Shown here piece by piece: positions 2,843 through 58,254 of a DNA stretch of 64,000 nt. The notes below the pieces were generated by a model. It saw only the letters and a program-made list of their open reading frames with translations, had not been told where the DNA came from and made no database searches. Source of the stretch: Guyparkeria hydrothermalis (lineage in GTDB: Bacteria > Pseudomonadota > Gammaproteobacteria > Halothiobacillales > Halothiobacillaceae); assembly GCF_023555375.1 (NCBI RefSeq), contig NZ_JAJSEE010000006.1:1-64000 (forward strand), written 5' to 3'. The stretch's first letter is position 1; the number at the start of each line of letters is the position of its first letter. The translations under genes and the position numbers were made by a program.

Positions 2843-4084
2843 TCAGACGAGCATGTCGCGCACGCGGGCGACCGCGGCGACGAACTGGTCGATCTCGTCG
2901 AGTGTGTTGTAGAAGGCCGCCGAGGCGCGCGCGGTCCCCGCCGGTGCCTCGACGCATTGCATCAGCGGCATGGCGCAGTGATGGCCGGTGCGCACGGCAA
3001 TACCCATCGAATCGAGCAGGGTGCCGATATCGTGCGGGTGGGCACCATCGATCAGGAACGAGACCACCGGCACCTTGTGCGCCGCCTGGCCAACGAGGCG
3101 CAGGCCGGGGATCTCGGCGAGTCCCTCGGTCATCCGCTGGAGCAGGGCGGCCTCGTGGCGCTCGATCGCAAGCCAGTCGAGCCCATCGGCCCATTCGAGG
3201 GCCGCGCCGAAGCCGATCGCGCCCTCGATATTGGGCGTCCCGGCCTCGAACTTCGACGGCGGCGGGGCGAAGCGTACGCCGTCGAAGCGGACCTCCTCGA
3301 TCATGTCACCACCACCCAGGAACGGCGGCAGGCGATCGAGCCAGTCCCCGCGGGCGTACAGGGCGCCGACCCCACTGGGGCCGAAGACCTTGTGGCTCGA
3401 ACAGGCGTAGAAGTTGCAGCCCAGCGCCTGCACGTCGACCGGCCCGTGCGGCAGGCCCTGCGCGCCGTCGACCAGCACGGGGATGCCGTGTGCCTGGGCG
3501 GTCTCGGCGATGCGGGCGACCGGATTGACCGTGCCCAGCGCGTTGGAGACATGGTTGACCGCAATCAGCCGCGTCTTGTCCGTGATCAGGCCGGGCAGGG
3601 CGTCGAGCTCGAGATCGCCCCGGTCGTTGACCGGAATGGTGCGAATCACGATGCCCTTGCGCTGACCGACCATCAGCCAGGGCACGATGTTCGCGTGGTG
3701 CTCGAGTTCGCTCAGGATCACCTCGTCGCCCGCCTGCCAGTCATCCGACAGCGAGTGGGCCAGGAGGTTGATCGCCTCGGTCACGCCACGCACGAACACG
3801 ATTTCGCGCTCGCTCTCGGCATTGAGCGACCGGGCGATCCGGGCACGGGCGTTCTCGAACCGTTCGCTGGCTCGGGCGGAGAGCGTGTGCACGCCACGGT
3901 GGATATTGGCGTTGTCGCGCTCGTAGAACTCGCGGATGGTGTCGATCACCACCTGCGGCTTCTGCGTGGTGGCCGCGTTGTCGAGGTAGACCAGCGGCTT
4001 GCCGTGCACCTGCTGGTCGAGCGCCGGGAACTGGGCCCGGATCGACTCGACGTCGAACGGCTGGGTGCGACCGTCGTCCGTCAT
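2843..4084 (-). CDS. sufS: Cysteine desulfurase SufS
   Basis: This PLP-dependent group II cysteine desulfurase, 413 residues, releases sulfur from L-cysteine to SufE. The PLP lysine is in SSHKVFGPSG. The catalytic cysteine is in the short RTGHHCAMPLM loop typical of the SufS/CsdA class. The ATG at 4084 overlaps the sufD stop codon (TGATG), indicating translational coupling; a GTG immediately upstream is also possible. It is placed between sufD and sufT in the operon. Confidence 0.95.
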   Translation of the reverse strand: MTDDGRTQPFDVESIRAQFPALDQQVHGKPLVYLDNAATTQKPQVVIDTIREFYERDNANIHRGVHTLSARASERFENARARIARSLNAESEREIVFVRGVTEAINLLAHSLSDDWQAGDEVILSELEHHANIVPWLMVGQRKGIVIRTIPVNDRGDLELDALPGLITDKTRLIAVNHVSNALGTVNPVARIAETAQAHGIPVLVDGAQGLPHGPVDVQALGCNFYACSSHKVFGPSGVGALYARGDWLDRLPPFLGGGDMIEEVRFDGVRFAPPPSKFEAGTPNIEGAIGFGAALEWADGLDWLAIERHEAALLQRMTEGLAEIPGLRLVGQAAHKVPVVSFLIDGAHPHDIGTLLDSMGIAVRTGHHCAMPLMQCVEAPAGTARASAAFYNTLDEIDQFVAAVARVRDMLV

Positions 4085-14241: not shown

Positions 14242-15336
14242 TCAGACGTTGAAGCGGAAGTGCACGATATCCCCTTCGTGCATGACGTAGTCCTTGCCTT
14301 CCAGGCGCCATTTGCCGGCCTCCTTGGCCCCCTGTTCGCCACCACAGGCGACGAAGTCCTCGTAGGCGACCACCTCGGCGCGGATGAACCCCTTCTCGAA
14401 GTCCGTGTGGATCACGCCGGCCGCCTGCGGGGCGGTCATGCCGCGCTTGATCGTCCAGGCACGCACCTCCTTCACCCCGGCGGTGAAGTAGGTCTGCAGT
14501 CCGAGCAGGTCGTAGCCGGCGCGGATCACGCGATCGAGCCCCGGCTCCTCGAGGCCCATCTCCTCGAGGAACATCGCCTTGTCGTCCCCCTCGAGATCGA
14601 TCAGCTCGGCCTCGGTGGTCGCGCAGACGGGAACCACGGTGGCGTCCTCGCGCGCGGCAAGCTCGCGCACCTGGTCGAGGAACGGATTGTTCTCGAACCC
14701 GTTCTCGTCGACGTTGGCGATGAACATCAGCGGCTTGGCGGTGAGCAGGTGCAGGTCGTGGAGCAGGGCGAGCTTGTCGGCCTCGAGCTTCATGGAACGG
14801 ACCGAGTGACCCTCGTCGAGCACTTCCGCGACCTGCTTGACCAGCTCGAGCTTGGCCGCGGCGTCCTTGTTCTGCCCGGACTTGGTCTGCTTGGTCAGCC
14901 GATCGACTGCCTTCTGCACGGTGTCGAGGTCGGCGAGCGCCAGTTCGGTGTTGATCACCTCGATGTCGGCGGCCGGGTCGACCTTGCCGGCGACGTGGAC
15001 GACGTCGTCATTGGCAAAGCAGCGCACGACCTGAACGATGGCATCGGTCTCGCGGATGTTCGCGAGGAACTGGTTGCCCAGGCCCTCGCCCTTGGAGGCG
15101 CCGGCCACCAGCCCGGCAATGTCGACGAACTCCATGCTGGTGGGGATGACCCGCTCGGGCTTGACGATCTGGGCGAGGGTGTCGAGGCGCGGGTCGGGCA
15201 CCGCCACCACGCCGACGTTCGGCTCGATGGTGCAGAACGGGTAGTTGGCGGCCTGGATGCCGGCCTTGGTCAGTGCATTGAACAGGGTGGACTTGCCGAC
15301 GTTGGGCAGGCCCACGATGCCACAGTTGAAACCCAT
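14242..15336 (-). CDS. ychF: Redox-regulated ATPase YchF
   Basis: YchF is an Obg-related P-loop protein that prefers ATP, 364 residues. G1 is [13 protein letters not shown]3 is [14 protein letters not shown], and the specificity motif is a non-canonical ANVDEN rather than NKxD, which explains the ATP preference. A helical insert and a C-terminal TGS domain (ending in DIVHFRFNV) follow. The expected partner gene pth lies upstream, separated by a MITE-like repeat. Confidence 0.96.
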
Positions 15337-15362
15337 AGGGACTCCGTTGATTCAATGTTTAG

Positions 15363-15538
15363 GGAAGGTCTGCACGATTGCGATGGCATCTCTGGCCCGC
15401 GGGTTTGTTCGCTTTTCTGGCGCCGGACCGAAGACGGGCTCATTGCCCGTCGAGGGACGGCAACGACGAGTGCGGACAAACCCGCGAGCCCCGTCCGGGC
15501 GGGCCTCCAAAGACGTCATCGAATCGTGCAGACCTTCC
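15363..15538. mobile_element. MITE-like fold-back element, copy A
   Basis: This 176-bp non-coding element between pth and ychF has perfect 17-bp terminal inverted repeats (GGAAGGTCTGCACGATT). It is bounded on both sides by TTAG (15359-15362 and 15539-15542), a 4-bp target duplication of the YTAR type. Inner arms 15394-15412 and 15472-15490 also pair at 17 of 19 positions, and a GACGGGC/GCCCGTC hairpin lies at the centre, so nearly the whole element folds back. There is no coding capacity. The IS5-group link rests on the GGAAGG tip and TSD type. Confidence 0.8.
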
Positions 15539-15585
15539 TTAGGCGCGGCCGGGCAGGGCGGCCGCGGAATGTGTGTGCCGCCCTC

Positions 15586-16170
15586 TCAGGAGGACGGCCG
15601 ATAGCTGTTGATGGCCTGCATCAATGCCGGTTCGTCGGCACGGACCAGGTCGGGCGCCAGGTGACGGATCTCGATCACGGCATCGTCGATCAGTCGGCGT
15701 TCGTCAGGCGGGGCACTGGTGAGCACGTAGCCGACCACGGCGTCTCGGTGCCCCGGGTGTCCCACGCCGATACGCAGGCGCCAGAAATTCGCGCTGCCCA
15801 GGGCCGCCTGGATGTCCTTGAGGCCATTGTGACCCCCGTGACCACCGCCGCATTTCAGCCGCAGGCGGCCGGGCGGCAGGTCGAGCTCGTCGTGGATCAC
15901 GAGGATCTCTTCCGGGGCGATCTTGAAGAACTGAGCCAGCGGTCCGACCGACTGGCCCGAACGGTTCATGAACGTGTCCGGGCGCAGTAGCCGCAGGTCG
16001 ACACCATCAACCATCACGCGGGCGACCGATCCCTTGAACTTGCGCTCTTCGGCCCAGTGGCCGCCCAGCGTCGCCGCAATCGCATCCACGGCCCAGAAGC
16101 CGGCGTTGTGACGCGTGTTGTCGTACTTCTGCCCGGGATTACCCAGTCCCACGATCAGCTTGATACTCAT
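15586..16170 (-). CDS. pth: Peptidyl-tRNA hydrolase
   Basis: Pth recycles peptidyl-tRNA released from stalled ribosomes. The 194-residue protein begins with IKLIVGLGNPGQKYDNTRHN, including the catalytic His (TRHNAGF) near residue 21, and keeps the GGGHGGHNGLKD motif. The ATG at 16170 matches the family N-terminus. It follows rplY but is separated from it by a terminator, so it probably has its own promoter. Confidence 0.96.
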   Translation of the reverse strand: MSIKLIVGLGNPGQKYDNTRHNAGFWAVDAIAATLGGHWAEERKFKGSVARVMVDGVDLRLLRPDTFMNRSGQSVGPLAQFFKIAPEEILVIHDELDLPPGRLRLKCGGGHGGHNGLKDIQAALGSANFWRLRIGVGHPGHRDAVVGYVLTSAPPDERRLIDDAVIEIRHLAPDLVRADEPALMQAINSYRPSS

Positions 16171-16218
16171 GGGCGCGGATTATCGCATAGCCGAACGCGC
16201 TGCTCGCCGGGGTCAAAC

Positions 16219-16245
16219 GAAAAAACCCCGATCAATCGATCGGGG
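16219..16245 (-). terminator. Rho-independent terminator of rplY
   Basis: On the minus strand a CCCCGATC/GATCGGGG stem with a 4-base loop is followed by six or more T residues, 27 bases past the rplY stop. It separates rplY from pth. Confidence 0.85.
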
Positions 16246-16271
16246 TCGGTCGAGCATCGAGGCAGGGAAGA

Positions 16272-16931
16272 TCAGGCTTCTTCGTCGCCTTTCTCTTCCT
16301 CGCCGCCGGTCTCGGCCTGTTGCTCTTCCTCTTCCGGCTCCTTCTCCACCTTCGGCGGGTGGATGGCAACGACGGCGACGTCGTGCTCTTCACCCAGGGC
16401 CAGCTCCGGAATGGCGATGCCTTCCGGCAGCTTGATCTCGGACAGGTGGATGGACTCGTTCACGTCCAGGTCGGCCAGATCGATGGTGAGGTATTCCGGC
16501 AGCTGACGCGGCAGGCACTCGATCTCGATCTCGTTGTGGATGACGCTGATGACGCCGCCGGCCTTCGCGCCTTTGCTCTCTTCGCGATTGTCGAAGTGCA
16601 GCGGCACGTGCATACGCATCTTCTGACCACGGGTGATGCGCTGGAAGTCGGCGTGCAGCACGACGGTGGTCTTGTACGGGTGGCGGTGCAGGTCACGCAG
16701 GACCACCTCGTCGGTCTCGCCGTCGACATTGAGCTCGAGGATATGTGAGAAGAACGCCTCGTGGTCGAGGTGCTTCAGGAGCTCGTTATGGTTGATGGTC
16801 AGCGAGACCGGCGGCTTCTTGCCACCGTAGACGATTGCCGGGATGTTCCCTTCGCGACGCAGGCGGCGGCTCGCACCTTTCCCCAGGTCATCGCGAACGG
16901 ACGCTTCAATCTTGAAAGTTTCTTGAGACAT
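16272..16931 (-). CDS. rplY: 50S ribosomal protein L25/general stress protein Ctc
   Basis: This is the long (Ctc) form of ribosomal protein L25, which binds 5S rRNA. At 219 residues it has the N-terminal L25 domain (about 1-95), a C-terminal beta domain and a very acidic tail rich in Glu. The ATG at 16931 has GGAG upstream; the frame continues upstream but without family similarity. It follows prs, as in many Gammaproteobacteria. Confidence 0.95.
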   Translation of the reverse strand: MSQETFKIEASVRDDLGKGASRRLRREGNIPAIVYGGKKPPVSLTINHNELLKHLDHEAFFSHILELNVDGETDEVVLRDLHRHPYKTTVVLHADFQRITRGQKMRMHVPLHFDNREESKGAKAGGVISVIHNEIEIECLPRQLPEYLTIDLADLDVNESIHLSEIKLPEGIAIPELALGEEHDVAVVAIHPPKVEKEPEEEEQQAETGGEEEKGDEEA

Positions 16932-25333: not shown

Positions 25334-25508
25334 GGGAAATCTGCTCGAATACCCAATGCCTATGGCAAGCCCCTTCGGGCGGGTCGCCAGGCGCCCATCT
25401 GCGGTGTTGCACCGCTTGCCAATGACTACGGCCATTGGCGGCGCGCTGCGCCTAGCATCTGGACGCCTGGCGACCCGCCGAGGCGTTGGTTATTCGTGCA
25501 GAGTTCCC
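25334..25508. mobile_element. MITE-like fold-back element, copy B
   Basis: This 175-bp imperfect palindrome lies between fimV and asd. Its ends GGGAAATCTGCTCGAAT and GGGAACTCTGCACGAAT (right end reversed) match at 15 of 17 positions and resemble copy A. Inner arms 25379-25393 and 25464-25478 pair perfectly (GCGGGTCGCCAGGCG), and a central GCCAATG/CATTGGC hairpin lies at 25418-25439. The interior differs from copy A, so it is a second subfamily. No clean target duplication remains. Confidence 0.7.
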
Positions 25509-58197: not shown

Positions 58198-58254
58198 GGA
58201 AACCCTGCTCGAATGCCATAACCACTCTGGCTTGGCCATTCGAGCAGAGTCTTC
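58198..58254. repeat. Short fold-back repeat, copy C of the MITE-like family
   Basis: This 57-bp element has inverted ends GGAAACCCTGCTCGAATG and GAAGACTCTGCTCGAATG (right end reversed), sharing the CTGCWCGAAT core with copies A and B. It forms a hairpin with the central arms nearly meeting. A CTAA precedes the left end, but the right side lacks a matching copy, so it is a shortened or decayed member. It sits in the leader of mgtE. Confidence 0.65.

Follow-up and report, generated by a model that had tools for sequence, protein, structure and literature searches.

What is the palindromic stretch that separates pth from ychF in Guyparkeria hydrothermalis, how did it get there, and how have its two halves remained matched? 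The window, meaning the whole stretch of DNA that was analysed (contig 6, bases 1-64000), belongs to a genome of 2.43 Mb in 9 contigs. A preliminary description made from the letters had reported, between these two genes, an element of 176 bp whose 17-bp ends are perfect, with TTAG on each side, all of which is seen in the sequence. In window coordinates the locus is built as follows:

14242-15336, minus strand: ychF, confirmed by Pfam
15359-15362, unstranded: left target-duplication copy TTAG, from the letters; a single 4-mer stands here in empty alleles
15363-15538, minus strand: the 176-bp element, with a lineage-A body and GGAAGGT ends, from sequence
15363-15394, plus strand: left terminal-stem arm, perfect over 17 bases and with more pairing beyond a 1-base bulge, from sequence and fold
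15395-15490, unstranded: hairpin arm 2, which is kept (GCCCGCGGGTTTGTTCGC ... GCGGACAAACCCGCGAGC), from sequence, fold and alignment
15491-15510, unstranded: junction and remnant of hairpin arm 1, from alignment to the same-site copy of Guyparkeria sp. SCN-R1 (G001), boundaries by eye
15511-15538, minus strand: right arm of the terminal stem, from sequence and fold
15539-15542, unstranded: right target-duplication copy TTAG, from the letters
15586-16170, minus strand: pth, upstream of the element, confirmed by Pfam

At 15522-15538 the left end, GGAAGGTCTGCACGATT at 15363-15379, recurs in exact reverse complement. The family to which the element belongs has a canonical strand, on which hairpin 1 comes first; for this copy it is the window minus strand. 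The inner arms pair as had been claimed, the strand read with pth and ychF folding to -109.9 kcal/mol (z = -10.1 against 200 shuffles). The term "intact", however, is true of the ends alone. G001, the nearest relative with a copy here, carries 266 bp between TTAG repeats at the same site (contig 11, bases 3786-4051, the same coordinates as in NZ_QZMT01000011.1), and in alignment with this copy the window body is without about 90 bp of hairpin arm 1; the window copy has lost one of its two hairpin arms. Its identity is 93.4% to the G001 same-site copy (152 bp) and 92.6% to the paralogue L024 (148 bp), which places it just slightly nearer the former. Along transcription, 26 bases separate the element from the ychF ATG downstream of it. 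A scan of window positions 15200-16300 gave no promoter-like sites and two terminator-like sites (1.0 in shuffles); of these two, one falls within the element, as a stem of 5 pairs on the opposite strand. A cis effect of the element on ychF is possible.

A genome search for the 17-bp end, which the preliminary description had proposed, gave 74 matches (40 + 34) at up to two mismatches and none for the reversed-pattern control, and the repeat is therefore not unique. An open-tip end pattern, GGAANNTCTGCACGAWT, was run with at most one mismatch on 11 genus genomes together with its reversed control. Ends occur in 10 of the 11 (G. hydrothermalis 157, G010 191, G001 100, G009 94, G002 70, G006 58, G008 35, G004 27, G007 18, G005 12, G003 0) and the control gave 0 in all 11; the complete G009 listing comprises 42 + 52 ends. 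With a stricter lineage-A pattern, 7 of 57 relatives were positive, all from the genus Guyparkeria. Eighteen stretches matched in a collection of named species, all titled Guyparkeria, Halothiobacillus or Halothiobacillaceae, a count from which our own genome was possibly left out and in which the stricter pattern misses the tips of G172. An 18-base end was present in 7 of 369 genomes of the class, namely four of the genus, two with one match each, and G172 with 20; G172 belongs to another family and is the sole genome of its order in that set, and one of its copies, of 265 bp, is at most 87% identical to copies of our own genome. A lineage-A copy found no match among plasmids and phages, and a lineage-B copy none among plasmids. 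Viral contigs yielded 28 stretches with one match apiece and no convincing partner end. Two further members lie in the window:

25334-25508, minus strand: decayed lineage-C member, intergenic, with fimV-like and asd-like neighbours, from sequence (gene names by eye from translations); 92% identical to the G009 copy L199 over 140 bp
58198-58254, plus strand: 57-bp remnant, almost just both ends, adjoining orn-like and mgtE-like genes (gene names by eye)

Judged by eye, at least six of our nine contigs (C3, C4, C5, C7, C8 and C9) end inside a family copy. Several G172 contigs also end inside family copies, and the G172 copy L263 is broken after about 35 bases by other sequence, which continues up to the end of the contig. 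Separately, an unrelated second repeat (GTTCGGTTGTTCCTCCAAACAGCG...) lies at three contig ends (L054 and L058, the starts of contigs 1 and 3, and L068, the end of contig 9) and is possibly an unassembled IS. No published description of the element family was found among the matches listed for Guyparkeria and Halothiobacillus repeats, and the main text of a Guyparkeria pangenome paper (PMC9032823) contains neither "transpos" nor "insertion sequence".

For a closer look at insertion, copies were extracted from 57 loci of our own genome, 37 of G009 and 7 of G172, which gave 89 copies with paired ends (48, 38 and 3, respectively). The limit for end pairing was 400 bp and partnerless single ends were dropped; longer members fall outside the 89. 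The ends of L034, L037 and L230 were set by hand, weak-ended copies (among them L232, L239, the 69-bp one of L238 and the second of L231) were kept, and partnerless single ends in our own loci (L019, L028, L029, L049, L051 and others) were compared with the family. Flanking 4-mers are identical in 16 of the 89 copies (6.2 under shuffled pairing), identical and non-palindromic in 11 (2.4 shuffled), and alike in at least three of four bases with a one-base slip allowed in 58 (38.7 shuffled); 0 of 2000 shuffles reached the observed value in any of the three tests. The left-flank tally is led by CTAG, TTAG, CTAA and TTAA and the right by CTAG and CTAA. Among the 76 copies with exact GGAA/TTCC tips, 18 have strict YTAR on both sides and 24 on neither. 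Where both flanks are strict YTAR, without slip, 8 of 18 are identical (4.9 shuffled, P 0.08), so this test alone is no proof of duplication. We also considered whether YTAR is part of the element rather than a duplication; this was rejected, as mirrored non-palindromic flanks number 3 of 89 (2.5 shuffled) and it is the identical ones that are in excess. The 4-bp target duplication is real but worn, exact duplications being the minority.

Empty alleles complete the picture. Of nine genus relatives in which a ychF locus is present, eight have an empty pth-ychF site; G009, G002 and G006 align through the target without a gap, and the spacers of the remaining five have diverged. The single TTAG that had been predicted for an empty allele was borne out as to number, one 4-mer standing in its place, but not as to letters, this 4-mer being CAGA or CAGG. 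Since this species and G001 have the element here and eight other genus genomes lack it, it most likely entered the common line of the two. Other copies were compared with 390 kb of G001. For the G009 copies L228, L224 and L221, the G001 site is empty, has the right length and holds one 4-mer; the sites for L227 (G009) and our own L021 fit, with nearby differences. L245 has one occupied place in G001 and a second, empty look-alike place, as if its flanks stood twice in that genome like a duplicated stretch. The designation as a MITE-type element, which rests on the many copies, on YTAR-like 4-bp target duplications in excess of chance and on relatives with empty alleles, is upheld, and this is very probably a mobile MITE-type family.

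What moved it is less clear. The preliminary description had tied the element to the IS5 group by its target and its GGAAGG tip. This link stands in part: the YTAR preference fits, the target motif and duplication of IS5 being YTAR (PMC10359306), with 4-bp repeats such as CTAA or CTAG (PMC11677980), but agreement with the ends of E. coli IS5 is confined to GGAAGGT, the IS5 end GGAAGGTGCGAA (IS5A of MG1655, L295) and that of the window copy being identical for 7 bases. The GGAAGG tip is likewise present but is one of several family tips (GGAAAC, GGAACC, GGAATC). The proposed IS5-group transposase elsewhere in the genome did not materialize: our own genome has no PF01609 or PF13586 match, and a search for an IS5-family element with the same ends found no related IS. 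Profile searches for DDE_Tnp_1 (PF01609) were also negative in G001, G009, G005 and G172; the one match among the 11 genus genomes is in G002 and has no family ends in the 3.7 kb around it. PF13586 was found in 0 of 7 genomes (our own and six others, G001, G009 and G172 included). An autonomous partner with family ends was thus found neither via PF01609 (11 genus genomes and G172) nor via PF13586 (7 genomes), and the five wider end pairs in G009 (400-3500 bp) each start at an end with a nearer partner. The absence from G009 and G005 is not an assembly gap, because both are single contigs; a multi-copy element could be missing from our own assembly, because contigs break inside copies. These results bear on a simple explanation, namely that this is just an internally deleted IS5-group element without unusual upkeep of its arms. 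It has the YTAR-like 4-bp target and the first 7 bases in its favor, but in addition to the divergence of the ends beyond base 7 and the lack of either transposase in our own genome, G001, G009 and G172, it would leave the concerted change of internal stems described below unexplained, and we regard it as quite unlikely. A DDE transposase with IS5-like target choice as the mover has, in our estimate, an even chance of being correct.

Alternatively, the elements could be REPIN-like, single-stranded hairpins moved by a RAYT-type Y1 transposase that would select for matched arms. Compensatory changes have been reported in REPIN hairpins (PMC3116915), and Y1_Tnp is present in 6 of 7 genomes (three matches in our own), the exception being G005, which has just 12 ends. 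Nevertheless, none of the 10 Y1 loci examined, out of 19 Y1 matches, carries a family end, and a 4-bp duplication is seen here. To our knowledge, Y1 transposition makes no such duplication. Y1 transposases were consequently rejected as likely movers on the strength of the 10 loci, and the REPIN-like explanation is improbable. Four of the five Y1 loci examined for other palindromic repeats have them (two of our own and two of G009), and the RAYT-like loci L286, L292, L289 and L294 have their own small palindromic repeats nearby. Hairpins are present in the Guyparkeria family, but they appear to follow a plan other than the two inverted palindromes of REPINs.

The copies are short (42-350 bp, most commonly 265 and 266 bp), non-coding and without an internal transposase, have a G+C content of 0.54-0.70 and occur in both orientations. 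A tree of 54 full-length copies, in which L199 was reversed, was read as four lineages, across which the blocks CTCTGCG, GATGCAAGGCG and GCCAGAG are invariant or nearly so. All 54 have a minimum free energy between -156 and -199 kcal/mol; against 200 shuffles, the RNA fold of L024 gave z -13.7 and that of L038 -15.0, and L024 folded as single-stranded DNA gave -11.9. The full-length fold is a T, whose terminal stem has about 31 pairs and bears two long hairpins as arms. Copies of 338-350 bp, including those of G172, have extra hairpins in the arms. At the G172 loci L251, L254, L256, L261, L262 and L264 we observed further nested hairpins in the arms, which look as though grown by palindrome addition. 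Among copies of at least 150 bp, 38 of 78 have ends that match at 17 of 17 bases, as against 6.9% between different copies; alike ends within a copy could arise if copies spread with ends already matched.

The stems offer a broader view of this matching. In an alignment (A1) of 46 of the 54 full-length copies (L031, L040, L045, L198, L218, two of L137, and L156 being left out, and L199 standing in its proper orientation), double changes that preserve pairing occur at 50 of 95 consensus pairs. Pairing cells amount to 96.8%, against 81.7 in column shuffles and 35-42 with slid partners, and double-change cells to 685, where column shuffles give 268 and partners slid by 1-3 columns give 30-89. Columns 5-282, 21-266, 22-265 and 42-127 each have two to four Watson-Crick forms and no broken copy. 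Taking 20 disjoint nearest-neighbor pairs of copies to lessen shared ancestry, we found 53 double changes, 45 of them from one Watson-Crick pair to another, where independence predicts 11.7 and partners slid by 1-6 columns give 4-18 (0-3 Watson-Crick). The terminal stem and both arms all show this excess, and neighboring double changes cluster (8 adjacent against 2.3 by chance; 0 of 2000). All three stems of full-length copies thus evidently change in concert. One-sided changes outnumber double ones (154 to 53 over 95 pairs; 90 to 50 over 71 pairs), and any correction between arms is therefore far from complete.

Such covariation could also reflect a structured RNA or a protein-binding cruciform with a cellular role, in which selection keeps the stems paired by compensatory mutation. 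The near-invariant blocks of the four lineages fit this explanation, as do the many uncorrected single changes, which compensatory evolution would leave, and the position of the window copy between two co-directional genes. When all 95 pairs of the forward-strand fold are counted, the single changes comprise 74 G-U, 38 A-C and 42 others, an excess of G-U that points the same way; over the 71 pairs predicted from either strand the bias is small (31 G-U, 25 A-C, 34 others), so an RNA-level preference is not established. Four copies matched no Rfam family above the cut-off and gave just two chance microRNA matches. An RNA or cruciform role also sits poorly with the empty pth-ychF site of most relatives and with copies that stand in both orientations, even differing at the same site.

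At seven sites two species each have a copy whose orientation is readable, and at two of these the copies are inverted (window/G001 and L031/G001); L244 and L245 share the orientation of their G001 counterparts, as do L018, L052 and L016 with G009. L034 versus L135 was left out of the count, the place in G002 being without a copy. At L031 the G001 same-site copy is outside the ten best matches, and because of this a replacement or second insertion is possible there. Lengths differ as well, and shortened copies are common among same-site pairs: 265 versus 55 bp (L244/L226) and 171 versus 42 bp (L243/L230) in our own genome versus G009, and 140 versus 266 bp (L016/L220) and 175 versus 265 bp (L052/L205) at two other sites. 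Arms lost as freely as in the first two pairs are hard to reconcile with an RNA or cruciform under selection, and we consider such a role unlikely.

Instead, we find it rather probable that the family is a non-autonomous MITE-type element that was moved by a DDE transposase and whose T-shaped palindrome is kept by templating between arms. We infer that the transposase, perhaps IS5-like, was supplied in trans and is today either rare or absent. Once inserted, the palindrome would be upheld at the DNA level: as the arms drift apart, one arm would serve as template for rewriting the other, either by polymerase template switching or in the repair of an extruded cruciform. Template switching is known to homogenize inverted-repeat arms and invert spacers (PMC8604942), and quasipalindromes are corrected in this manner (PMC7202029). 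Such templating could rewrite all three stems pairwise and invert the inner part in place, and entire hairpin arms would be taken out by deletion, the window copy being an example. It would account for paired stem changes that a DDE transposase should not need, and for the weak strand signal and the same-site inversion. Arm-templated rewriting would be the main and likeliest cause of the paired changes, a proposal that we hold to be evenly poised. More tentatively, the T-shaped DNA fold might itself be the unit of inheritance, each of its three stems being copied from arm to arm by hairpin-templated synthesis, whether during replication or in a hairpin transposition intermediate; this is possible but doubtful. 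If true, the sequence would split into lineages while the T fold stays, with the inner part turning over in place as a viral terminal repeat does.

Inverted-repeat upkeep has so far been studied mainly in reporters and short repeats, as far as the cited work goes, and dozens of palindromic copies per genome, some at the same site across species, make up a natural data set on the matching of inverted repeats. The family also breaks assemblies and occupies gaps between genes, pth and ychF for example, and its density in the complete G009 genome (94 ends) without a DDE_Tnp_1 transposase raises the question of its mover.

Like bacterial MITEs such as Correia, Chunjie, QMITE2 and ERIC (reviewed in PMC10969869), the Guyparkeria elements are short, non-coding and multicopy, with inverted ends, target repeats, some internally shortened copies and transcripts predicted to fold. 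That review calls MITEs typically AT-rich, whereas the Guyparkeria copies are G+C-rich; the word "compensatory" is absent from its main text, and the account cited here describes neither paired arm rewriting nor same-site inversion. Nor did the matches listed for MITE literature on compensatory change and target duplication include paired rewriting in a MITE. E. coli IS5A is alike in the GGAAGGT tip, which is one end variant of the family, and in the YTAR 4-bp target, but the family ends differ after base 7 and the Guyparkeria element has no transposase. The T-shaped terminal repeats of AAV have a long stem with two inner hairpins and occur in two orientations. The Guyparkeria fold appears alike in its long stem, two inner hairpins and two possible orientations; AAV-type repeats are viral chromosome ends, and we claim no homology. 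REPINs are shorter than the Guyparkeria elements. Both are paired palindromic mobile DNA with compensatory changes (PMC3116915), but the Guyparkeria family, unlike REPINs, has three stems, a 4-bp duplication and no link to the Y1 genes examined. Work on quasipalindrome correction (PMC8604942, PMC7202029) concerns short repeats in genes and reporters, whereas in Guyparkeria a whole interspersed family is involved, on comparative evidence only; the two would be alike in the homogenization of arms and the inversion of spacers.
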